A stretch of 64,000 nucleotides of DNA from Phycisphaerales bacterium (lineage in GTDB: Bacteria > Planctomycetota > Phycisphaerae > Phycisphaerales > SM1A02), in the NCBI GenBank assembly GCA_029242715.1, contig JAQWTL010000020.1:186001-250000 (forward strand), read 5' to 3'. The notes below the pieces were generated by a model. The model searched no databases. It was given only the letters and a program-made list of their open reading frames with translations, and had not been told where the DNA came from. A program made the translations under genes and the position numbers. Below are positions 23,379-35,951 of this stretch, one piece after another (positions within the stretch are counted from its first letter, which is position 1; the number at the start of each line of letters is the position of its first letter).

Positions 23379-24188
23379 TCAACGCCCGCCCGGCACACGA
23401 CGACCACCACCAGGCTGACGACGACCGCTGCTACCACTGGAACTCTTTCCTGGCTTCTTCCCACCAGCTTTTTCATCTTCCTCATCTTCACTCAGATCCG
23501 CCAGCTGGTCACTGTCATCCATTGCCCACATGGCATTCTCCTCATCGAGGATCTTCCACCACTCAGCAATCCGGTCATCGCCACTCAAACGATCAACCAT
23601 CCCAGGTGGGGTTGCGATCGCCCAGAAGCCGATGGTTTCATCGTCGCTGATATTGCCGATGTTTTTGGCTCGGTAACTCCAGAGCTGGGCTTCAGGATCC
23701 CGCATCACATCAATGTGCTCGAAGATTGCCAGAACACAAGTGCCACCATCCTTGGCAGGTCCCGTCTGCAACTCCACGTTGTCGATGACATCTCCGGTTG
23801 AAGCAGCCCACTGCCCTTCCTGAACCATCGCCATCAGTTGGGGCTGGTCAGCAGTCCCCAGAACTTCAATGACGTACTCATGGTTGCCACGAACCCAGGC
23901 ATCAAAGAACTTGAGCAGTGCGATCTTTTCCTTCTCACTGGAAGGGGCCTTGTCCTCAGACATGTAAACACGGTCATCGATTCCATATTCGGTCATGAGA
24001 TCGGCAATTGTTCGAGCCTGCACTGGTGGCGGCGTGTAAGCCCTGGTTTCCTTCTTGACAGGCTCAGGCTTCTTTTCCTCACCACAGCCAGTCACCAAGA
24101 CGCCTGCACAGAGAATGAGCAGGGACATCAGGAGACCAGTCGAGAGACGAGCCCTAAGACTGAACGGCAGTTGCATCAGGTGTGTCAT
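23379..24188 (-). CDS. lipoprotein inserted in the fab operon
   Basis: A 269-residue lipoprotein: signal LSTGLLMSLLILCAGVLV, lipobox VTGC, then a charged linker (EEKKPEPVKKE), a middle domain of about 150 residues, an acidic run and a Gly/Arg-rich end (GRRQPGGGRRVPGGR). Start ATG 24188 is fixed by TGGAGGT 9 bases upstream; it overlaps the fabD 3' end by 35 bases. No domain recognised. Its place between fabD and fabG suggests an envelope or lipid-linked role. Confidence 0.8.
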   Translation of the reverse strand: MTHLMQLPFSLRARLSTGLLMSLLILCAGVLVTGCGEEKKPEPVKKETRAYTPPPVQARTIADLMTEYGIDDRVYMSEDKAPSSEKEKIALLKFFDAWVRGNHEYVIEVLGTADQPQLMAMVQEGQWAASTGDVIDNVELQTGPAKDGGTCVLAIFEHIDVMRDPEAQLWSYRAKNIGNISDDETIGFWAIATPPGMVDRLSGDDRIAEWWKILDEENAMWAMDDSDQLADLSEDEEDEKAGGKKPGKSSSGSSGRRQPGGGRRVPGGR

Positions 24189-25122
24189 GATTATGTACCT
24201 CCAGTTTTCGATCAATTCTCTTCATGAGACCCTTCAAGACTTTTCCAGGAGCCAGTTCATGGAATCCTGTACATCCCTGTTCAACCATGTCGGCGAGCGA
24301 TTGGGACCACCGTACAGGCTGGGTAATCTGCTCAACAAGGCGTTGCTTGATGGACTCAATATCATTTTCATGTGGGCGAGCGGTCACGTTCGACCAGACC
24401 TTAACCGCTGGAACCTCCAAGGCGACCTTGTCCAGCACTTCGGCCATTTGATCAGCAGCAGACTGCATCAAGGGTGAATGGAAAGCACCCGCCACTGGCA
24501 GTGCTTTTCCTCTGTATCCAGCATCACCAGCTGCCTCAGCTGCTGCCTCACAGGCGCCAGCTGAACCACTCAGAACAATCTGACCAGGCGCATTGAAATT
24601 GGCCGGCACCAGAACCTCATCCGAGGACAATCCCTCCAGGACCGAGGCACAAAAAGCCACAGCCTGGGCTTCATCAGCGCCCATCAGAGCGACCATGCCG
24701 CCCTTGGAAGCCTCTGCGGCCTCCTGCATGAGCCGGCCTCTGGCGGCAACTGTCAGCAGTGCATCTTCGAAGCTCATGGCACCTGCAAGATGAAGTGCGG
24801 TGTATTCCCCAAGTGACAAACCTGCAGTTACCTGCGATTCGATGGAAGGATCGACTGCTTGCATGCCATGCCAACAGGCAACAGAACACGCAAGGATCGC
24901 GGGCTGACTCACATCAGTCCGATTGATCCAGTCAATCGGTCCTTCAAAGCAGGACTCGCTCAAGAGTTTGGATAGTGAGCCCGACAAGATCCGATCTGCT
25001 TCAGCCATGACGGCTGCCGCTTCGGGGCTTGCTTCACACCAGGCCTGCCCCATCCCAACGGACTGGGCACCCTGGCCAGGGCACAGAATCGTGCAGTCAT
25101 GCATGCTCATGGACATCATCAT
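24154..25122 (-). CDS. fabD: malonyl-CoA:ACP transacylase
   Basis: FabD loads malonate onto ACP. Seen: the CPGQGAQSVGMG start, catalytic Ser in AGLSLGEYTAL, GRLMQEA with the substrate Arg, and the active-site His in VAGAFHSPLM. The N-terminus has several Met (MMMSMSMHDC), so the exact start among 25122-25104 is uncertain. Confidence 0.96.
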   Translation of the reverse strand: MMMSMSMHDCTILCPGQGAQSVGMGQAWCEASPEAAAVMAEADRILSGSLSKLLSESCFEGPIDWINRTDVSQPAILACSVACWHGMQAVDPSIESQVTAGLSLGEYTALHLAGAMSFEDALLTVAARGRLMQEAAEASKGGMVALMGADEAQAVAFCASVLEGLSSDEVLVPANFNAPGQIVLSGSAGACEAAAEAAGDAGYRGKALPVAGAFHSPLMQSAADQMAEVLDKVALEVPAVKVWSNVTARPHENDIESIKQRLVEQITQPVRWSQSLADMVEQGCTGFHELAPGKVLKGLMKRIDRKLEVHNHDTPDATAVQS

Positions 25123-25162
25123 AGATCAGGCAGAGCCGACAGGAGGCTCTGGAAGCTCTTAT

Positions 25163-26167
25163 TTAGAGGTTCCAAACGCTTGAAGCCCACGTCAGGCCCC
25201 CACCAAAGGCAACCAGCACGATTGTCTCTCCCTCCACCAGGCGTCCAGCCTTGTTCAACTCATCGAGGCAGAGGCCCACGGAGCCCGCAGAGGTGTTTCC
25301 ATAGCGGTCAATGTTCACATAGACCTTGTCATCCGGCAAACCAAGCTTCTCTTTGGCGGACTCGATGATCCTGATGTTCGACTGATGACAGACGAACTCT
25401 GAAACATCGTCGACCTTGAGATCGGTGGCTTTCAGAGCTTCCTTGATGACGTTCTTGAACTTGGAGACTGCAAATCGATAGACATCACGCCCATCCATTC
25501 GAAGCTTGCCCATGCGAATGCTTGTCTCAGTTGATCCCGGAGGGACATCAGATTCCTTGCGAGGAAGGTAGAGCGATGGCCAACTGGATCCATCAGCCTC
25601 CATCGTCTGAAAAATGCTGCCCTTTAACGGATCGTCATCTCGAACCAGAATGGCGGATCCCGCAGCATCTCCAAACAGTACGGACACTGTCCGCTCCTCG
25701 TAATCAACCGCCTTGGACATCGCATCACATCCAATGACCCCGATCGCACGATGCCGACCAGACCGAATCAGAGAATCAGCAAGGTTCAGCGCGTAAACGA
25801 AGCCGGAGCATGCCGCGACAATGTCGAATGCACCTGCTGGTGCTGCGTCGATCTCTGTCGCCACTCTGCAGGCATTGGAAGGACAGGTCATCTCAGAGGT
25901 CACGGAGGCGGCAATAATCAGGTCCAGATCGGAACCCTTCATGCCAGCATCATCCAAAGCACCCCGTATCGCCCGGCACTGGAGAGTGAACACCGACTCA
26001 TCATCAGTGCTGCAGATCCGTCGCTCGCCGATTCCGGTCCGCTGACGAATCCACTCGTCAGATGTGTCCATCATCCCGGCGAGATCCTCGTTGGTCAGCA
26101 CCTTCTTCGGCACAGCGGAACCTGTACCGGCGATGCGGACCCCGCATGGAAGCGAGGGATCGGGCAT
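25163..26167 (-). CDS. fabH: beta-ketoacyl-ACP synthase III
   Basis: FabH starts chain synthesis by condensing acyl-CoA with malonyl-ACP. The catalytic residues are visible: Cys in VAACSGFVYAL, His in FVCHQSNIRI and Asn in DRYGNTSAGS. 334 residues, standard. The ATG at 26167 overlaps the plsX stop by one base. Confidence 0.97.
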   Translation of the reverse strand: MPDPSLPCGVRIAGTGSAVPKKVLTNEDLAGMMDTSDEWIRQRTGIGERRICSTDDESVFTLQCRAIRGALDDAGMKGSDLDLIIAASVTSEMTCPSNACRVATEIDAAPAGAFDIVAACSGFVYALNLADSLIRSGRHRAIGVIGCDAMSKAVDYEERTVSVLFGDAAGSAILVRDDDPLKGSIFQTMEADGSSWPSLYLPRKESDVPPGSTETSIRMGKLRMDGRDVYRFAVSKFKNVIKEALKATDLKVDDVSEFVCHQSNIRIIESAKEKLGLPDDKVYVNIDRYGNTSAGSVGLCLDELNKAGRLVEGETIVLVAFGGGLTWASSVWNL

Positions 26168-27183
26168 CAGACCTCTACCTCAACGCTATCAAGGCGATCA
26201 CTGATTGCCTGGTTCACACCCGATATCACGTATCGACGGGCACGTTGTATCGCATTGGCGATCGTACGAGCCTCGCTGGATCCATGGCAGATAAGGCATA
26301 CGCCATTGACGCCCATCAATGGAGCCCCGCCATACTCGTGATAGTCATACTCCTCGTAGAGCCTGCGAAGCACGGGCTTGAATTGCTCTGCGAGCTTGGG
26401 ATCTTCTTCCTTGGCCAATGAGGCGATCTTCTTGATGATGCCACTGGAAAGGCCCTCGGCAAGTTTGAGAGTCACGTTGCCGGTCACGCCATCGCAGACG
26501 ACCACGTCTGCAGCTCCATCAAAGACCACCCGGCCTTCGACGTAGCCGATGTAGTTCACGCAATCACCATCACGCATCATGTCCCGAGCCTTCTGAAGGT
26601 CCTCGGTTCCCTTGTTCTCTTCGCCTCCGACGTTCATGAGTCCAACACGTGGCGAATCAATGCCGAGCATGTGACTGGCATACACGCTGCCCATCACGCC
26701 ATACTGCATGAGGTGATGCGGCTTGGGCTCGATGTTGGCCCCGACATCAATGAAGGTTACAGGGCCAGAAAATGTCGGAATGACGGCTGCAATGCCCGGC
26801 CGTGCAACGGAAGCCAATCGCCTCATGTGCATCTGGGCTGCTGCTACGAATGCACCTGTATTGCCCGCAGAGATCACGACATCCAGCTGACCGTGCTTGG
26901 ATTTGCGAGAGGCCTCGCGGCACAGGACAACCAGGGAACTATCTGATTTGGTACGAACCGCCTCCACTGGCGATTCATCCATGGCAACAACTTCAGTTGT
27001 TGCCACCACCTCGACCCTTGAGTCCGTGCACTCGTTGGTTGTCATCCAGGATTCGATGGCCGCCTGATCACCAAAGAGAACGAGACGGTCACCTTCATCG
27101 AGATGCGCCAGCCCAGGTGTTACCCCATCCAGGATTTCCTGAGGGGCATGATCCCCACCCATGACATCGAGACCGATGCGCAT
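26167..27183 (-). CDS. plsX: phosphate acyltransferase
   Basis: PlsX converts acyl-ACP to acyl-phosphate for membrane phospholipid synthesis at the inner membrane surface. It opens with the typical IGLDVMGGDHAPQEIL and has ISAGNTGAFVAA, IDVGANIEPKP and GVTGNVTLKLAEG. Length 338 aa. It lies directly after rpmF, the usual bacterial order. Confidence 0.97.
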   Translation of the reverse strand: MRIGLDVMGGDHAPQEILDGVTPGLAHLDEGDRLVLFGDQAAIESWMTTNECTDSRVEVVATTEVVAMDESPVEAVRTKSDSSLVVLCREASRKSKHGQLDVVISAGNTGAFVAAAQMHMRRLASVARPGIAAVIPTFSGPVTFIDVGANIEPKPHHLMQYGVMGSVYASHMLGIDSPRVGLMNVGGEENKGTEDLQKARDMMRDGDCVNYIGYVEGRVVFDGAADVVVCDGVTGNVTLKLAEGLSSGIIKKIASLAKEEDPKLAEQFKPVLRRLYEEYDYHEYGGAPLMGVNGVCLICHGSSEARTIANAIQRARRYVISGVNQAISDRLDSVEVEV

Positions 27184-27613: not shown

Positions 27614-28834
27614 TCACATGAGATGCAGCCATTCCTTGAAGAGGAAATCAAACCGCTCGGTGAGCAGAGTAATACGGCCCATCACGGTCAATCCAAATGC
27701 GGCTCCGAATGTGACCATGAGCACGAAAATACCCCCACGAGCTGCTTTACCTACGGCACCCTTGTGCTCCATGGAGAAGAAGAAGTAGATCAGGCACAAC
27801 AACACACCCACCAGAATGACGATGGCCCCGACCGAGTTCCAAAGATCGAACTGTCCGTTTGCATTTTCTGCCCAGAGTGTGGTGATCGTGCCCTTGATCT
27901 GCAGCAGGAAATCCGATTCCAGGTGAGAGGTAAGTCGAAAACCTGCTGTGGCACCAATGATGAATGCCAACGGCCAACGCGCAATCCAGCCACCCTTAGG
28001 CAGCAGACGACACACCAGCATGATCGCCAGGATCCCTGGAATGACGTACACCCAGTCCCAGTCGTAACTCCACGGCAATCCTGGTGATGTCCATTCACGG
28101 ACCAATCCCGGGAACAAGTTGATCAACAACTGATCAACGATACCCGTATAGAACGCATAAGCCATCGCATAGCCTGCCGATGAACCGACAAGAATAGCCT
28201 CAGCAGTTTTATAAAACGGATTGTCGCCACACAGGAATGACATGATGGCCAATGTGAAAATCGCAGCCAGCCAAATGCCAACTGTTCGACTCACGGAAAA
28301 AGTGGCATTCGCAGGACGATCCGCTGCAGGCATGTTGTATGGAAGGCTTGATGTCACTTCCCATGACGAGACCGTTCCGGTTGCGGTCATGCCTTCCTTA
28401 GCCTCTTGATCGGTTGGAAGCCATGACACAGATGTGGCGGTTCCGGTCAAGTGAACCATGTCTACCGGATTACCGGCCTCGACTCTGGATTGGACCTGCT
28501 TTGAAACAGCATCTGTATATGCCTTTTCACCAACCTCAGACGTAAAGGCCTTGTTTTCTTCTGTCGTAGCGATGACTCGCTCGCCAGAAATCTCTGCCCC
28601 ATTCGAGACCGCCTCACGGGCCTCTCCCGATATCTTGGGCAACCACTCATCAATTGAATTCGTCGATGAATACTGCGTATAGCTTTCTGTTTCTGAGACG
28701 ACATAAACCTGACCCGCATTCAGGGTGAAGTACGCCACGAACATGCCAATGACCATGAGTACGACGACCACGCTCCATCCCAGGAGTGCGCCGCCACTAG
28801 CCTTTGGTACTGGTGTGTGTGTTCCTTTTGTCAT
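27614..28834 (-). CDS. polytopic membrane protein, last gene of the GlmL-type operon
   Basis: A 406-residue membrane protein: an N-terminal helix (WSVVVVLMVIGMFVAYFTL), an extracytoplasmic domain of about 140 residues rich in Thr, Ser and Glu, then about six helices including WLAAIFTLAIMSFLCG and WVYVIPGILAIMLVCRLL, and a loop with GLPWSYDWDW. No family recognised. The start is ATG 28834, overlapping the upstream stop as TGATG; a TTG three bases upstream is less likely. It is the last of eight coupled minus-strand genes. Confidence 0.72.
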   Translation of the reverse strand: MTKGTHTPVPKASGGALLGWSVVVVLMVIGMFVAYFTLNAGQVYVVSETESYTQYSSTNSIDEWLPKISGEAREAVSNGAEISGERVIATTEENKAFTSEVGEKAYTDAVSKQVQSRVEAGNPVDMVHLTGTATSVSWLPTDQEAKEGMTATGTVSSWEVTSSLPYNMPAADRPANATFSVSRTVGIWLAAIFTLAIMSFLCGDNPFYKTAEAILVGSSAGYAMAYAFYTGIVDQLLINLFPGLVREWTSPGLPWSYDWDWVYVIPGILAIMLVCRLLPKGGWIARWPLAFIIGATAGFRLTSHLESDFLLQIKGTITTLWAENANGQFDLWNSVGAIVILVGVLLCLIYFFFSMEHKGAVGKAARGGIFVLMVTFGAAFGLTVMGRITLLTERFDFLFKEWLHLM

Positions 28835-29703
28835 CAAGCACCCCCCCGCCTGCGGTCCAGGATGAAGATCAGGTTGCCCAGCAGGATCAGAACCACCATC
28901 AACAGGTGAGCAACGAACTGCGGACCCATTCGCTGGAATGCAGCAGTAGTCGAGAAACGTGCATTTATCATCTCATCAGTAGCCAAAGATGGATACTGCT
29001 CAAGAAGAATCTGCTCATAACCGGCGGCACCTTTGATGGCCGCCAACAAGCCAGCCATCGGGTCCGGTATGTAGGGATACAGCAGCGGCGCCTGAACGCC
29101 GGTACATCCCGCAACCAATGGCAGGCCTGCAGGCGTTGCTGCATACTGAACCCACTGCTTGGCTCCAGGGTCGCCCGCACAGACATTCACGATGAGATCC
29201 ATGGCCTTGGCTGACTTGATGTTCGCGGTCATCGGAATTTTATTCAGCGACTGCTTGCGGGAGTCAGTGATGAACAACTGCTTCCAGTCCACAATGATGT
29301 TCTTGATCACGGCTTCGCCACCTGGCTTATAGCCGAATGACATGAAATTCTCGCCGTACTTAAGACCCTCAAACTCGGTCTCGAGAATCTTCATCGCGTC
29401 TTCGATGAATGGCTCTCCAAGAGGCCAGAGACACATGAAGTAGACCTTGTGTCTCTTGAACCCGCAGTGACGAGCAAATGCATTCGCCATGGGAAGCAGT
29501 TCGCCCTGGGACCCTGGATCGAAGTCAAATGAAAGCAGCACACGGGATCCATCTGGAAGATCCTCGATGGCATCGAAGACACTGCGATCCATCATGGTGG
29601 CATTGTTGGGTGGCAGGAATCGAAGAAGGATCGGCAATGCAACAGCAACACCCATCAACAGGAAGATCCAACGACGATCAAGATTTCGGAGGAAATTCAT
29701 CAT
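28834..29703 (-). CDS. two-helix membrane protein of the GlmL-type operon
   Basis: A 289-residue protein with one hydrophobic helix at each end (WIFLLMGVAVALPILLRFL and FVAHLLMVVLILLGNLIFIL) and a domain of about 220 residues between. The middle has alternating strand and helix (SRVLLSFDFDPGSQGELLPMA, KVYFMCLWPLGEPFI) like a Rossmann-type domain, but no motif gives an activity. GGAGGA 7 bases before ATG 29703 fixes the start. Three bases separate it from the upstream gene. Confidence 0.7.
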   Translation of the reverse strand: MMNFLRNLDRRWIFLLMGVAVALPILLRFLPPNNATMMDRSVFDAIEDLPDGSRVLLSFDFDPGSQGELLPMANAFARHCGFKRHKVYFMCLWPLGEPFIEDAMKILETEFEGLKYGENFMSFGYKPGGEAVIKNIIVDWKQLFITDSRKQSLNKIPMTANIKSAKAMDLIVNVCAGDPGAKQWVQYAATPAGLPLVAGCTGVQAPLLYPYIPDPMAGLLAAIKGAAGYEQILLEQYPSLATDEMINARFSTTAAFQRMGPQFVAHLLMVVLILLGNLIFILDRRRGGA

Positions 29704-29706
29704 GGA

Positions 29707-30600
29707 TCAGTCCTCCGACCCGAGGTAAGAACGATCAATACCCAACAGCACCTTCAAGGAGACCGACACGATGCCAAGAGCAATGCCGATCATGATGGCC
29801 CTGTTGCCCGCCTTCTGAGGAACATCAAGGATGACCTGAGTCAGGTTTTCAAGGCGAAGCCCATTGACCAGTTGGTACCACCAGCCGGTCATATGAGCAT
29901 TGACCTCAGTCGCGGTTGCCTGCTGGGCCGCGGACATTTGATCAAACGACATGCCTGCATAGGACATGTCAACCAATGGGACTCCATTCTGAACCTGAAT
30001 CCCAATGGCTTGGGCCAGGGTCTGCATTTCCGTTGGGAAGCTCGCGACATACGAAGCGAGGTCTGGAAGGAAACTGGTGAGCCACACACCCGCATAGATC
30101 TGTCCAAGAAGAACGATGAATGCGGTTCCCAACAGCAGCGTCGCTTCGACATTCTTGGCACGGAAAGCCCGGAATGCAGCAGAAGCGATATAGAACGCCA
30201 GCATGGCAAACATGGTCGCTGTCAGTGGCTTGTAAACGTAGGAGTAGATCCACCAGAACGGTACGCCTTCCTGTGAAACCAGGGGAGCCGTCCAGGGATT
30301 GTCAGGAGCTGTCATCGTCGGCAGAGCGCCAATCTTGAAAACGCCGACTGCCAAGGTGCCAAAGAACGCAAGGAGCGTAATGGCACCATATGCCCAGCCA
30401 GGTCGCTTGTTGGAGATCTTGGACAGGTTCAACATGATGAGGTTGCCTGCACCAAGAACCATGGCACCGGCAGCCAGAATGATGAACATCTCCATCGCGG
30501 TAGCGCCCCACTCTTCCGTATACGGAATGAAGTAGGTGGCGATCAGCAGGAAGCCGACCAACGCTGCGATGAGAAGTGGAATCGTCCGCTTTGCAAGCAT
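29707..30600 (-). CDS. six-helix membrane protein of the GlmL-type operon
   Basis: A 297-residue integral membrane protein with about six helices: TIPLLIAALVGFLLIATYF, MFIILAAGAMVLGAGNLIML, YGAITLLAFFGTLAVGVF, ATMFAMLAFYIASAAF, TLLLGTAFIVLLGQIYAGVW and IMIGIALGIVSVSLKVLL. A loop of about 85 residues sits before the last helix. No known transporter motif. The ATG at 30600 overlaps the stop of the preceding gene by one base. Confidence 0.72.
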   Translation of the reverse strand: MLAKRTIPLLIAALVGFLLIATYFIPYTEEWGATAMEMFIILAAGAMVLGAGNLIMLNLSKISNKRPGWAYGAITLLAFFGTLAVGVFKIGALPTMTAPDNPWTAPLVSQEGVPFWWIYSYVYKPLTATMFAMLAFYIASAAFRAFRAKNVEATLLLGTAFIVLLGQIYAGVWLTSFLPDLASYVASFPTEMQTLAQAIGIQVQNGVPLVDMSYAGMSFDQMSAAQQATATEVNAHMTGWWYQLVNGLRLENLTQVILDVPQKAGNRAIMIGIALGIVSVSLKVLLGIDRSYLGSED

Positions 30601-31985
30601 CAGTTCCCTCCTTCTTGAATGGCTGGCTGAGCGTCTTGATCTGCTTCCATGAGCCGATTCAATTCGCCATCAAGCACAGCAATCTTGAGTTCATTTGGAA
30701 CCAATCCATCCTCACCCAGGACATTGTTCTTGATGTAGAGTTCGGCAACTCGAATCGGCTTGCTTGCTGGAACAACTGTTGCCAACGTCGCAAGCAGACA
30801 ACCGAGTATCAACAGGAAGGCGGCAATCACTTTGCCAAGGTCCTGCCCCTTGAGTGATCCAAGTTGCTCCGGATCATTCGACAGGTAGGCAGAAGCCGCG
30901 AAGAACTCTTCGCCGATCAAGGTGTAGTCACATGCCGCCACAAAGAATGGCAACTGGGAAGGCATCGCCGTACCCGCAATCTGGATCGCCCCGATTGAGT
31001 TGGCCGTTTCTGCAAGAATCAGTGATTCAGCATAGAAGGCACCCATGTAGAAGCAGGCAGCGGGTTTCTCACGAACCATCGCACCCTGAACACCAGCCGT
31101 ATAGCCAAACTGCTCATCTGTGAGGTAGTAGATGTTGTCTTCGTTATAGGCATCGGGACGACCTTCACCGAGATAGGCGGCCTCAACCGTCTCCCGAGCA
31201 GTCGTCATGACCAGGGATCGAGCGGTTGGAACCTTCAGTTCAGCGTCATATTGTGCTGCCGTGCGAGCAACATTCGACAACACCGTGATGCCGGCAACTG
31301 TCTGGATATCGTTGATATCCAGAATGCCTGGGACAAAGAGAACAGGCTTGCCCATTTCAGTTGAACGGCCAACCGCCTCTGTAACCGCCTCGAGACCAGC
31401 AATTGGCCTGACTTTGATCTTGCCACCACGCTTGGCATAGAATACGAAGTACACGATCACGATGCTGATGATCATCATGATGATGAAGAACCAGAGCTTT
31501 CCCTGGTTGATGTATTCCATCTTGGCGATGACAGGTGCTGCCGCACTTGATACTGGCGAGTACGTACCGCCGGGTCCAGTGGCCGCAATGCCATACATGT
31601 AGGCCACATCCGGCTCTACATTCTCATCGAGGAACTGGCTTACGGAATATGGAACCGTGCCCACAGGCTGATTGGCTTCGTAGTCGAAGTCATCAGCAAA
31701 TCCAAGTTCACCTGGCCCTGCAGCTGCCTCTGCGCCACTCTCAAGAGCGAGTGCGCTGGGAACAACCTTTCGATAGATCGCGTACCCATTGATGGGACGT
31801 GATCCATCAGCTGCCAGATGATCTTCAGACGACAGGCTCCATTTCACCAGAACTTGTCCGCCGATGTCATCGGGCACATCTTCTGCAAACACGTCGGTGG
31901 GACCTGCCAGAGTCACAACCTGCCCACGGGTAACCGAGGGCAAACTGACCAGCAGGGCCAGGAGGAGAACCAGGGCTCTTGTCAT
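30600..31985 (-). CDS. fibronectin-like/DUF6754-type membrane protein
   Basis: A 461-residue protein: signal peptide (LVLLLALLVSLPSV), an extracytoplasmic beta domain up to about residue 160 with fibronectin type III-like features (GGQVLVKWSLSSEDH, YAIYRKV), a helix (LWFFIIMMIISIVIVYFVFY), a cytoplasmic alpha/beta part with GKPVLFVPGILDINDIQTVAG, and a second helix near the end. It resembles the uncharacterised DUF6754 type as I recall it. The ATG at 31985 is preferred over GTG 31994 because AGGAG is 8 bases before it. Confidence 0.7.
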   Translation of the reverse strand: MTRALVLLLALLVSLPSVTRGQVVTLAGPTDVFAEDVPDDIGGQVLVKWSLSSEDHLAADGSRPINGYAIYRKVVPSALALESGAEAAAGPGELGFADDFDYEANQPVGTVPYSVSQFLDENVEPDVAYMYGIAATGPGGTYSPVSSAAAPVIAKMEYINQGKLWFFIIMMIISIVIVYFVFYAKRGGKIKVRPIAGLEAVTEAVGRSTEMGKPVLFVPGILDINDIQTVAGITVLSNVARTAAQYDAELKVPTARSLVMTTARETVEAAYLGEGRPDAYNEDNIYYLTDEQFGYTAGVQGAMVREKPAACFYMGAFYAESLILAETANSIGAIQIAGTAMPSQLPFFVAACDYTLIGEEFFAASAYLSNDPEQLGSLKGQDLGKVIAAFLLILGCLLATLATVVPASKPIRVAELYIKNNVLGEDGLVPNELKIAVLDGELNRLMEADQDAQPAIQEGGN

Positions 31986-31990
31986 GCCAC

Positions 31991-33115
31991 TCACTCCTCG
32001 ATCAGTTCCACGTTGGCCCGTGGCACGATGGCCTTTTCACCGGAGGGGAACGTAACCTCCAGTACACGGGCTTTGGATCCGGAACCCAGAACATGTGGTT
32101 CAGTTGGCAAGCCTGAAACAGTGCCAATCATCCCGAACCAGGGATCCCGAATCACTCGAAGCTGCCGGCCGGTTTCCAGCTGACCTTCTTCGAATTTCTT
32201 GTTCTTGTCTGATGCTGGTGGTGAGTTCAACGGAACGATGATCTCAGGTCGCATGACACCAGCACGAATCTGCGTCGCACCATTCACAGAAGCATCCTGA
32301 CCTTCAAAGTCATGAAGCATGGCAAACGTGCGTTCAGCCATGGAGATTTCGCCGAAACCTTCGGTCACGATGACCGTGATACCCAACTCTTCTCGGCCTG
32401 TAATCGCAACCCCAAGGTCATACCCGAGGAGCTGTTTGAGATCCTGATCATCAATGCCACCGCTGATGATGGCCGCCACCTTGATTTCTTGAGCCTTCTT
32501 GATGGCCTCAATCGTCATGCGGGCACCGCCTATGACGATGCAACCTTCCATGTCTGGTGTCACAAGATCTGGAGTCAAGTCCTGATCATGAGACGTCCCA
32601 ACGACCCGGATGGTTCCATGAGTTTCACCCCCGACACCAAAGATACCCTGCACATAGGCAACATCTGTCTCGATTTCACACCCTTCACCGGGTGCAACAC
32701 TGACAACCTTGCCACTGATATAGGCACGAACCTGAACCGGCAGAGGGGCCCCACGAACGATGACCTGACCAGTCACCGGCGAGACCGTTTCAACAGTTCC
32801 TTCAAATCGAGAATGGACGATGGTCTTAAACATGCCGAAGAGGCCCTTGCTCTGTGCAAGCGGCTCATCCAAAGCAATGGGCTCACCTTCCTTCTTCAAC
32901 ATGCAACTGACAACATCTGCTGGCGGAAGAGACATCTGATTCGCAAGGTTGATGGGATGTACATCGCCTGGAAGATTGGTTTCCGCAACAATATTGTCGG
33001 CCGAGACCTGATCACCTTCTTGAACACGGACTTCGCCTGCAATCGGCAGCCGACGCATGATCCGGTGCTTCTTGTGCTGAGTTACCAGCAATCCAGGGGT
33101 ATAAGCCTTGGCCAC
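31991..33115 (-). CDS. sandwich-hybrid / KOW-like protein of the GlmL-type operon
   Basis: A 374-residue soluble protein. The N-terminal part repeats hybrid-motif strands (LPIAGEVRVQEGDQVSADNIVAE; SRFEGTVETVSPVTGQVIVRG) as in biotinyl or RnfC-like domains; the middle (MEGCIVIGGARMTIEAIKKAQE, AAIISGGIDDQDLKQLLG) is an alpha/beta domain; the end (RVIRDPWFGMIGTVSGLP) resembles a KOW/SH3-like barrel. No Lys for biotin attachment was recognised. GTG at 33115 with TAGGAGC upstream. It probably links the ATPase to the membrane parts. Confidence 0.68.
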   Translation of the reverse strand: MAKAYTPGLLVTQHKKHRIMRRLPIAGEVRVQEGDQVSADNIVAETNLPGDVHPINLANQMSLPPADVVSCMLKKEGEPIALDEPLAQSKGLFGMFKTIVHSRFEGTVETVSPVTGQVIVRGAPLPVQVRAYISGKVVSVAPGEGCEIETDVAYVQGIFGVGGETHGTIRVVGTSHDQDLTPDLVTPDMEGCIVIGGARMTIEAIKKAQEIKVAAIISGGIDDQDLKQLLGYDLGVAITGREELGITVIVTEGFGEISMAERTFAMLHDFEGQDASVNGATQIRAGVMRPEIIVPLNSPPASDKNKKFEEGQLETGRQLRVIRDPWFGMIGTVSGLPTEPHVLGSGSKARVLEVTFPSGEKAIVPRANVELIEE

Positions 33116-33137
33116 AATAGTGCTCCTACCGGGTGCC

Positions 33138-34964
33138 TCAGACGCCCACGGCCTGTGCTTCTTCTACATAAACTTCAAGCGCATTCAGCCACTTCTGAAC
33201 TGTTGACTGGCAGGACGATCTGTCTTCTGGAAGCGCCAATGGTCGACCTCTCCCATCGAGAATCAGGCCCACAGTACCGCCATGGACTGTTCTCTGCACT
33301 TTCTTGCCGGGTCCTTCACCAAGGTTGATGCCTCGAGCTGGCGACAGTGTGATTGTTCCAGTTTCGCCCTGATCCAGGGGGAGCAATGACATCTCGCCGC
33401 CAGTGATTTCTCCGGAATCAGTCTTGTCACCTGTCAGCTCATATTTGAAGCACAACTTTCCTGGCTTGGGCTGCCCCGCTGCACAGACACTCGTGCCCAG
33501 ATAAACCAGACAATCACGATCAAATACCTGCTCAGCAGCCTTGGCATGCACACTTGAAAGCACACCAAGATGGGGCATCATGAAGATGGAGTCCTTGGCC
33601 AGCATGGTCACACCCTCGGGCTCAAAGGCATCAATCAGCATCATTGCTGTCTGGTGCATTCGTGGGGCATGGCTCAACACGCCGCCTGAGGCAACGAGAA
33701 GATCCAAGGCCATGTTGTTCACGATCGTCTGACCACTGGTCTGCTGACTGAAGGTGTCACCGACTGTTCGTTGCTGCTGAACACCCTTGAGTGTCGTCGC
33801 AAATTCCTTGTGCTGCTTGTACGCGAGCCGCAGGGCTTCACGTGCAACAGCCTGCTCGAACATCAATGCTTCCTTGGTCTGGGGAATCGTCGTGGGACGG
33901 ATCATCTTGTTCTTGACATGATTCCGGAGCTCTCGCTCGTTCATATCGAACGGGACCCATCGAAGCACATTCGGCATCGTGGCCTCGGCACAGACATTCG
34001 AGATGGAATAGGACATGCCGAGGTTGGCACTGACCGTCCGGTTGAAGGTCTTGTCAAAGACGCTGAAGACGTCCGTGGTCGCGCCGCCAATATCGACACC
34101 CACGACATTGATGTCCTGGATTCGGGCGACTGTCTGAAGGATGTCCCCCACCGCACCTGGGGTGGGCATGATGGGTGCTCCGGTCCAGCCCATGAGCTTG
34201 TCATAGCCGGGAGCCTGAGCCATCACGTGCTCAAGAAAGATGTCATGAATCTTGTCGCGGGCGGGGCCCAGATTTTCTCGTTCAAGAACCGGACGCAGGT
34301 TGTCCACGATCTGCAGATCAAATCCGCCTTCACTGAAGACTTCACTGACCGCATCGCGTGCATCCTTGTTGCCCGCGTAGATGATCGGCATTGAATAGTC
34401 ACTGCCAAAGCGAGGCTGCGGTTTTGCTGGAGCCACGAGTTCAGAAATCTGAACCACCTTGTCGGCTGTCCCTCCATCGGTTCCGCCTGAAATCAAGATC
34501 ATGTCTGGTCGGAGATCACGGATCCGCTGGATCTGATCATGAGGTCGGCGACCATCATTTGCAGCAATCACATCCATGACGATGGAACCGGCACCCAAAG
34601 CGGCTCGTTTGGCGCTGGCGGCTGTCATTTCGGCAATGACACCAGCAACCATCATCTGAAGACCGCCTCCAGCACTGGAGGTGGAGATATAGATGTCGCA
34701 TCCTGCAGTATCTGTCGCTGGCGTGATGATTCGTCCGTCGTCACCGACAAGTTGACGCCCAGCCAACTCCCCAATCTCGGTAACGGAGTTGACGACACCC
34801 ATGGTGACATCTGCAAAGGGCTTTTCGACCGTTGTCGGAGCCTCTCCACGATGAGTCTGGCGGTACTCACCATCCACATATTGAATGAGAATGGCCTTTG
34901 TGGTCGTACTTCCACAATCAGTTGCAAGGATAACCTTGATCTGGTCAGGGTCGATTTTAGTCAT
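33138..34964 (-). CDS. GlmL/MutL-family actin-like ATPase
   Basis: A 608-residue protein of the GlmL (methylaspartate mutase accessory, also called MutL) family. The phosphate motifs of actin/Hsp70-type ATPases are visible: ATDCGSTTTKAIL near the start and GVDIGGATTDVFS in the middle, with LLVASGGVLSHAP as the adenosine-type motif. GlmL proteins are thought to support B12-dependent glutamate mutase, but no GlmS or GlmE subunit or DxHxxG B12 motif occurs in the window. ATG 34964 overlaps the upstream stop by 8 bases. Confidence 0.85.
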   Translation of the reverse strand: MTKIDPDQIKVILATDCGSTTTKAILIQYVDGEYRQTHRGEAPTTVEKPFADVTMGVVNSVTEIGELAGRQLVGDDGRIITPATDTAGCDIYISTSSAGGGLQMMVAGVIAEMTAASAKRAALGAGSIVMDVIAANDGRRPHDQIQRIRDLRPDMILISGGTDGGTADKVVQISELVAPAKPQPRFGSDYSMPIIYAGNKDARDAVSEVFSEGGFDLQIVDNLRPVLERENLGPARDKIHDIFLEHVMAQAPGYDKLMGWTGAPIMPTPGAVGDILQTVARIQDINVVGVDIGGATTDVFSVFDKTFNRTVSANLGMSYSISNVCAEATMPNVLRWVPFDMNERELRNHVKNKMIRPTTIPQTKEALMFEQAVAREALRLAYKQHKEFATTLKGVQQQRTVGDTFSQQTSGQTIVNNMALDLLVASGGVLSHAPRMHQTAMMLIDAFEPEGVTMLAKDSIFMMPHLGVLSSVHAKAAEQVFDRDCLVYLGTSVCAAGQPKPGKLCFKYELTGDKTDSGEITGGEMSLLPLDQGETGTITLSPARGINLGEGPGKKVQRTVHGGTVGLILDGRGRPLALPEDRSSCQSTVQKWLNALEVYVEEAQAVGV

Positions 34965-35340
34965 TATTTGGATCCCGAGAAACTTCGGGCAGGTGTTGAG
35001 ACTCGGTTTCCTCGGCATCAGGACCAACCCGATCCCAATGCTCTAAGCGTTGGCAAAGATACTCGACCGACCCCCTCTGCTCAAGGAAGGTGGCAAACTC
35101 CTTGACGGTCGGGCCATCGATAACGACAGAAATAATCGGATTGAAAAAATGGATGGCCTGGGAGGCGACAAAGTTGAGAGGACGGCCCATTTCAAGGGCC
35201 ATGAGGGCTGGAAGGGTCATTCCACGCCGAACAACGATCTTGCAGACCCGATCACAGATCTCACGCTGACGATCGGTCGGCTCAGCCACTCCAGGCTTGT
35301 CAACTGCAAAGGCCGTTCTGAGTTCATCGCGCCAACTCAT
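34957..35340 (-). CDS. small conserved protein of the GlmL-type operon
   Basis: A 127-residue soluble protein. The centre (EICDRVCKIVVRRGMTLPA, then LEMGRPLNFVASQAIHFFNPII) is a helical segment that I associate with small proteins of unknown role. The end is acidic (DAEETESQ). The frame is open to 35511, but ATG 35340 is chosen because it forms a 4-base ATGA overlap with the preceding gene. Both ends overlap neighbours, so the gene is translated as part of the operon. Confidence 0.7.
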   Translation of the reverse strand: MSWRDELRTAFAVDKPGVAEPTDRQREICDRVCKIVVRRGMTLPALMALEMGRPLNFVASQAIHFFNPIISVVIDGPTVKEFATFLEQRGSVEYLCQRLEHWDRVGPDAEETESQHLPEVSRDPNND

Positions 35341-35789
35341 GTATGCCCTCCACCTGAACTGGCCATACAGGCCTGGATCTGGGGAATGATCTCCACCCCA
35401 CGACCAGCAAACAGGACGCTGATTCCACGCGAGTCGAACATGCCCCCTCGAATTCGTGTCGATAGATAACCACCGGAATGATCGTGAGGAAATCGTCGAA
35501 GATCCTCCCAACGCAAGGACCGACTTCCAACTGGATAACGAACAGCGATGCCGATCTCATCCATTCGGTAACGGCTGGGAAGAAAAAAACGATTGCACAT
35601 GAAAAGCAGGAAGATCATGGCTCCTCCGCCTGCCAACACACCTCCGGCGACATTGGGAATCGACATCGCCACCAGTACTCCACAGGCAAGAATCACCAGG
35701 CAGGCAATCGCCGCCCTGAGGGGAAACTCTCGCAGTGGGTGTGCCGTCCATTCCAGTGTTTCAACTGGATTATTGGCTGACGTGTCCAT
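35337..35789 (-). CDS. small membrane protein, first gene of the GlmL-type operon
   Basis: A 150-residue protein with two hydrophobic helices (AAIACLVILACGVLVAMSI and VLAGGGAMIFLLFMCNRFFL) and a C-terminal soluble part (YRMDEIGIAVRYPVGSRSLRWEDLRRF) with a PH-like strand pattern. GGAGGAG lies 12 bases before ATG 35789; the TTG in the open frame 21 bases upstream overlaps that Shine-Dalgarno and is rejected. It precedes the 127-residue protein and GlmL. Confidence 0.7.
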   Translation of the reverse strand: MDTSANNPVETLEWTAHPLREFPLRAAIACLVILACGVLVAMSIPNVAGGVLAGGGAMIFLLFMCNRFFLPSRYRMDEIGIAVRYPVGSRSLRWEDLRRFPHDHSGGYLSTRIRGGMFDSRGISVLFAGRGVEIIPQIQACMASSGGGHT

Positions 35790-35951
35790 CTCGACCGTGA
35801 TCTCCTCCAAGCAGGCTTACCAGTGTAGTTGAGGACGGACAGGGCACAGGCGATGAGATCCATCACATGATCCACCCAGGAGGACTCTCTGAAATCGCTC
35901 AAAAAGAAGCTTCAGAGGCCTTGGATCTGCTTTATCACTCATTCCACCCGT

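Follow-up and report, generated by a model that had tools for sequence, protein, structure and literature searches.

The closest described counterparts of the genes analyzed here include accessory proteins of B12 enzymes. The PF13941 (MutL) superfamily includes the GlmL/MutL proteins of glutamate mutase (NCBIfam models NF040745 and TIGR01319) and a GlmL-like ornithine protein (Or-4, NF040744), and the dehydratase reactivases of the DdrA/DhaF type combine an ATPase of the ASKHA superfamily with a swivelling domain and act on a B12 enzyme. The mode of action ascribed to reactivases of B12 enzymes is that of an ATP-driven activator or assembly factor working in trans. Another relevant family, PF20539 (DUF6754), has a name that carries no function. 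Members of PF13941 and PF20539 are joined in an operon of eight open reading frames (ORFs), all on the minus strand, at positions 27614–35810 of a 64,000-nucleotide stretch of a Phycisphaerales (Planctomycetota) genome (GenBank assembly GCA_029242715.1, contig JAQWTL010000020.1, positions 186,001 to 250,000), hereafter the window. The genes are denoted A to H in the order of transcription; C is the PF13941 protein and E the DUF6754 protein. There is an even chance, in our estimate, that these genes represent a new kind of widely inherited membrane system, namely an inner-membrane complex of four proteins, E-F-G-H, that is switched or driven by a reactivase-like actin-fold ATPase shared among its several copies, occurs in nearly all genomes of one phylum as well as in many other phyla, and performs an important, hitherto undescribed function.

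The operon is as tightly packed as an earlier note, made from the sequence alone, had claimed, with overlaps of 1–8 bp and small gaps. Gene A (35337..35810) encodes a small two-helix membrane protein with a weak match to bPH_6 (E=3.4e-4, 21 bits, just under the cut-off of 22); its longest ORF starts from TTG at 35810, and the ATG at 35789, where the operon had been taken to begin, is internal. A overlaps B (34957..35340; 127 amino acids, no transmembrane segment by hydropathy) by 4 bp (ATGA), B overlaps C (33138..34964; 608 amino acids) by 8 bp, and a 22-bp gap separates C from D (31991..33115; 374 amino acids, no transmembrane segment). With its listed GTG start, E (30600..31994) overlaps D by 4 bp; the likelier start is the fourth codon, ATG at 31985, which corresponds to a nearly invariant methionine in the E alignment and leaves a 5-bp gap. 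E shares 1 bp (TGATG) with F (29707..30600), F is separated by 3 bp from G (28834..29703), and G shares 1 bp, again TGATG, with H (27614..28834) if the latter starts from ATG at 28834, the longest H ORF starting from TTG at 28837. H is a putative polytopic protein with a conserved core of ~200 amino acids and a lineage-specific N-terminal part. Scans for promoters and terminators yielded nothing beyond shuffled sequences.

The gene order was compared across 118 distinct loci, all found through E: the window, 40 Planctomycetota loci picked for diversity out of 111 genomes, and the best 80 loci retained from a scan that covered 84,980 species of bacteria and archaea (at least 582 pattern matches, 575 of them encoding a relative), minus three duplicates, with all eight families mapped. 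The order within E-F-G-H is nearly invariant: F comes after E in 123 of the 142 E genes (6 more lie at contig edges), G after F in 118/126 F genes (3 more at edges), and H after G in 117/123 G genes (5 more at edges). This four-gene block is often repeated, with another E after H in 19 of 119 cases and up to three E genes per locus. Upstream, D lies immediately before E in 49 of 54 cases (another 1 is at an edge), C sits before D in 35 of 48 (3 more at edges), 34 of the 53 B genes lie directly before C, and 22 of the 26 A genes lie directly before B. Among further long C genes, some in overlapping loci, B is directly before C in 15/24 and 2/3, and B keeps its place before C also where C and E-F-G-H lie far apart. 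Of the 118 loci, 47 contain C and 54 contain D. Thus, the recurrence of a fixed order across Planctomycetota and other phyla, a check that the earlier note had put forward, is borne out and exceeds chance, the window operon being one case of a large conserved system, but the operon is not built around the ATPase, as had been thought, because E-F-G-H is the most constant unit, and A/B-C and D are separable, B-C-D being a second module that is often unlinked.

DUF6754 was detected in 111 of 392 Planctomycetota genomes and in none of 14 control genomes. The titles of the best 80 scan loci include Planctomycetota, Cloacimonadota, WOR-3/Stahlbacteria, Armatimonadota, Latescibacterota, Zixiibacteriota, Eisenbacteria, Fermentibacteria, Gemmatimonadetes, Neomarinimicrobiota, Poribacteria, Mcinerneyibacteriota and metagenome-assembled genomes (MAGs) labelled Bacillota, among others, and records titled as anammox bacteria are among these carriers. 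The phylum to which one Armatimonadetes MAG (G409) belongs is the extreme case, with DUF6754 in 173 and PF13941 in 179 of the 201 genomes, i.e. near-universal. Proteins so conserved and widespread should have an important role.

The link between the two modules extends beyond physical proximity. Among the 392 Planctomycetota genomes, 104 have both E and C, 7 only E, 12 only C and 269 neither (Fisher P ~1e-71, uncorrected for descent); in the phylum of G409, the corresponding numbers are 168, 5, 11 and 17 (P ~2e-13), with E and C on different contigs in many cases among the matches listed. C is missing from the locus in 58 of the best 80 scan loci, but a C that does not adjoin E usually lies elsewhere in the genome. 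All 38 genomes tested (37 of those 58 and the genome of locus L117, near which a C-D fusion lies) encode a PF13941 protein that scores over the cut-off, although G393 has no more than a short fragment of one; out of the 38, G414 and G428 at least represent the same places as G039 and G061 from the first sample. Of the 47 genomes tested for D, 33 behind best-80 scan loci and 14 from Planctomycetota, 45 have it and two (G405 and G422) lack it; for four of the 47 (L117, G024, G360 and G368), D was already known from the E locus, and G061 is probably the same genome as G428. D goes with C: adjacent to it, elsewhere in the genome or, in diverged copies, fused to it, the single C-D ORFs of 910–1148 amino acids being found in 11 cases. 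More than one E match (two or three) was found in 17 Planctomycetota genomes, 12 of which have exactly one C match; nine of the 12 have two near-complete E matches, and in the other three, the extra E matches are fragments. On the strength of gene order and co-occurrence taken together, it is very probable that the families A to H form one functional system.

As regards its assignment, C is a full-length member of the PF13941 superfamily (420 bits against a cut-off of 27, positions 1–450 of 450) that carries ~120 amino acids beyond the Pfam domain. Its scores are below the cut-offs of the narrower NCBIfam models: 223 versus 475 bits for the GlmL equivalog NF040745, 170 versus 204 for the GlmL subfamily TIGR01319, and 203 versus 600 for the ornithine model NF040744. 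In a phylogenetic tree, 73 long C proteins group together (support 0.94, with two unassigned sequences within), 10 short MutL proteins, five of them encoded beside a mutase, form a separate clade (0.99), and the 11 C-D fusions fall on the long-C side, not as one clade. Judged by NCBIfam's own test and by tree position, C is not a GlmL, so that of the earlier label ‘GlmL-type’ the superfamily holds and the GlmL identity does not. Nor is it the case that such ATPases are known solely with glutamate mutase, as had been stated, given that NCBIfam also names a PF13941-type protein of ornithine degradation.

No mutase was detected with Pfam and NCBIfam among the eight operon proteins, in agreement with the earlier note, and the window genome (97% complete), which has one PF13941 gene, has no match over the cut-off to the glutamate mutase family PF06368 (best 12.8 bits versus 26.6). 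In Planctomycetota, PF06368 scores over the cut-off in 6 of the 392 genomes, each time adjoining a PF13941 protein or fragment. Five of these six adjoining proteins score 41–180 bits on the C profile, compared with 869–1048 for complete long C, and the sixth (G010), a fragment at a contig end, is missed by the profile; between the two ranges lie the fusions and three diverged copies in one MAG (G413; 85, 382 and 662 bits). Five of the six mutase genomes lack E, and the one exception, G324, combines E and a long C with a short MutL that lies beside the mutase. The short proteins lack the ~120 amino acids that C has beyond the Pfam domain. D is absent in 7/7 genomes with only short-type PF13941, according to our own assignment, and present in four of the five genomes with long C but without E (once as a fragment).

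The sequence of C is highly conserved, with a mean column identity of 63% in an alignment of 19 proteins, the other 18 being 52–62% identical to the protein from the window. The invariant positions include D16 and G18-K23, D291 and G293-D298, and G427, G428 and L430-H432, which we take to be the two phosphate motifs and the adenosine motif of ASKHA ATPases. For D, the predicted structure (pLDDT 83) contains a beta-rich N-terminal region followed by two recognizable domains. The region ~150–300 resembles the swivelling beta/beta/alpha domains of RraA (1j3l, Z 9.7, 4.8 A, 131 aligned residues) and 5fbu (Z 9.2, 2.6 A, 102 aligned), and residues 312–374 form a predicted KOW domain (NusG, 1m1g, Z 7.8, 1.8 A, 54 aligned, 32% identity), for which most of the listed matches are KOW domains (NusG, Spt5, ribosomal) or similar small barrels with Z ~7.5–8.5; all these Z values are modest. 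Compared with RraA-like and phosphohistidine swivelling domains and with NusG-type KOW domains, D is distinguished by the additional N-terminal region, and no sequence family was found for it.

E is a full member of DUF6754 (403 bits, cut-off 27). The model of E (pLDDT 86) includes a fibronectin III domain at 28–160 (Z 13.7, 2.3 A, 98 aligned), and this fold, together with the KOW domain of D, supports the earlier identification of a fibronectin-like and a KOW protein. No fold was obtained for DUF6754 because fibronectin domains fill both match lists for E, and this gap carries no evidential weight. From the model together with hydropathy and charge, E is predicted to consist of an N-terminal hydrophobic segment, the fibronectin domain, a transmembrane segment, the alpha/beta DUF6754 domain and a C-terminal transmembrane segment; the same evidence suggests that DUF6754 is cytosolic, that G has two transmembrane segments flanking a domain outside the cytoplasm, and that F has six helices. 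The fibronectin part is dispensable because 20 of the 145 E ORFs found are shorter than 300 amino acids and encode little beyond a helix and DUF6754. At the other end of the range, 22 of the 145, many from Cloacimonadota, exceed 850 amino acids and have long N-terminal regions. The E proteins of 911–1160 amino acids (loci L074, L090, L078 and L092; Cloacimonadota and some others) have a very long N-terminal region with weak or no fibronectin matches, and in several loci a gene of the M23 peptidase type precedes a long E.

Searches for other relatives of the eight proteins brought little. Neither Pfam nor NCBIfam yields a match over the cut-off for B, D, F, G or H, and among the Pfam and NCBIfam matches of all eight there is no PilM/GspL-type or other family of type IV pili or type II secretion. 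Solved relatives detectable by sequence were not credible for C, D, F, G or H, and for E were limited to fibronectin-type matches; profile comparisons gave no support to homology of E with G or of F with H. A role in anti-phage defence was rejected, the PADLOC models giving 0 matches for the eight proteins at E 0.01. DUF6754, PF20539, PF13941 and phrases built on GlmL drew no mention in open-access PubMed Central (PMC), a collection without preprints and most subscription papers, and passages of PMC2881027 hold nothing pertinent. Within open-access PMC, the system is undescribed, as the earlier note had supposed, and the set of eight matches no family or system tested. Current annotation hides the system because its parts are split among a ‘MutL’ family, a domain of unknown function and proteins with no family; naming the set as one system makes it testable and sets right a possible attribution of C to glutamate fermentation.

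Compared with the described systems, C shares the whole PF13941 domain with the GlmL/MutL proteins and the ornithine GlmL-like protein, but its partners are E-F-G-H and D, not a mutase. The dehydratase reactivases likewise combine an ASKHA ATPase with a swivelling beta/beta/alpha domain, the two being split here between C and D or fused, although reactivases are not among the listed fold matches for D; unlike in those systems, the partners are membrane proteins, and no dehydratase or B12 enzyme is seen adjoining. For DUF6754, the link to F-G-H and B-C-D is the addition made here.

The arrangement that we propose places E-F-G-H in the inner membrane as a complex whose conserved cytosolic face is DUF6754 and which carries an outside domain on G and, often, fibronectin domains on E; B-C-D would serve it as a cytosolic ATPase unit. 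In this unit, C would hydrolyse ATP using its actin/Hsp70-type fold, D would be its partner that contacts the membrane complex, and B probably keeps C close to the membrane. E-F-G-H would most likely move or insert something at the inner membrane. The occurrence of a single C with several membrane blocks, together with the fusions of diverged C and D, suggests that C-D is a shared ATP-driven activator, and because one C-D unit coincides with several E-F-G-H copies per cell, it would most likely act in trans as an activator or assembly factor. The specific proposition that C-D, like the reactivases, works in this manner and does so at the cytosolic side of E-F-G-H is put forward tentatively, its chance being somewhat below even. 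Several observations weigh against this reading of the data. The co-occurrence of E and C is partly due to shared descent, the counts not being corrected by a tree, and the PF13941 searches behind these counts pick up long C and short MutL alike; among the 7 Planctomycetota genomes with E only, 6 also lack D and 1 has it; all 11 C-D fusions are diverged paralogues (447–633 bits on the C profile), which in some genomes coexist with ordinary C and D; among the 17 genomes with multiple E matches are 4 that also have two or three PF13941 matches and one that lacks any; nothing recognizable as a transporter, channel or chaperone turned up for F, G, H or DUF6754, with fibronectin domains filling the E/DUF6754 lists; and a structural or signalling role would yield the same pattern.

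The main rival to an activator in trans is a shared energiser, with C-D powering transport by several E-F-G-H modules at each turnover; in group II energy-coupling factor (ECF) transporters, one shared ATPase powers several substrate modules. The excess of E over C in the 12 genomes with a single C would fit, as would a MAG labelled Bacillota in which C-D pairs, some of them diverged, lie beside genes for FtsX-like permeases or ABC transporters (L153, 2878–9411; L158, 3860–10358; L155, 9062–14283, where the transporter genes were recognized by eye), as if the C-D module served other membrane complexes too. No substrate-binding family was seen, however, and to our knowledge no actin-fold ATPase powers transport directly; we regard this explanation as unlikely. 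Less likely still is the trans-envelope machine, powered or regulated by C, that the earlier note envisaged and for which the evidence comes from hydropathy: the domains predicted on both sides of the membrane and the 22 E proteins with long N-terminal regions would suit such a machine, but the 20 shortest E ORFs leave little or no outer domain, and no outer-membrane or wall family is found in more than 4 of the neighbours scanned (99 of the 139 listed downstream and 108 of the 155 listed upstream).

A different possibility is that the system serves the supply of membrane lipids or fatty acids, given that genes for PlsX and FabH lie downstream of the operon in the window (24154–27183) and in L034 (with FabD), and immediately follow C in L175 and L177 (two WOR-3 genomes); such an arrangement is limited to 4 of 161 loci and two lineages, which makes this option improbable. 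Finally, C might be the reactivase accessory of a B12 mutase, with the membrane genes as bystanders. Membership of C in PF13941 and three B12-binding matches elsewhere in the window genome speak for this explanation, which is nonetheless hardly credible, and strongly disfavoured for glutamate mutase: that role was rejected because E and D track long C rather than the mutase, which is missing from the window genome at the cut-off used and was found in 1 of the 111 E-positive Planctomycetota genomes, beside its own short MutL.

In the window, the operon is flanked upstream by a gene of the biotin/lipoate-ligase family and one for quinolinate phosphoribosyltransferase, and downstream by the gene for ribosomal protein L32 and genes named PlsX, FabH and FabD from their Pfam matches. 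Among the scanned neighbours, the P-protein of glycine cleavage is the only family that occurs in more than 4 (18 of 108 upstream, GcvP2_C in 11). In 11 of the 161 loci searched (L095, L104, L123, L130, L139, L149, L162, L173, L175, L177 and L179), its genes lie upstream of B-C at a distance of up to ~1.8 kb, and in L173, apparent gcvT and gcvH (by eye) are followed by two P genes that run straight into A to H; this linkage may be functional or may reflect inherited order. In L130 (15565–17500) and similar loci (4 of the 99 downstream neighbours), E-F-G-H is followed by genes for proteins with a carboxypeptidase regulatory domain, some of which also contain a TonB plug.

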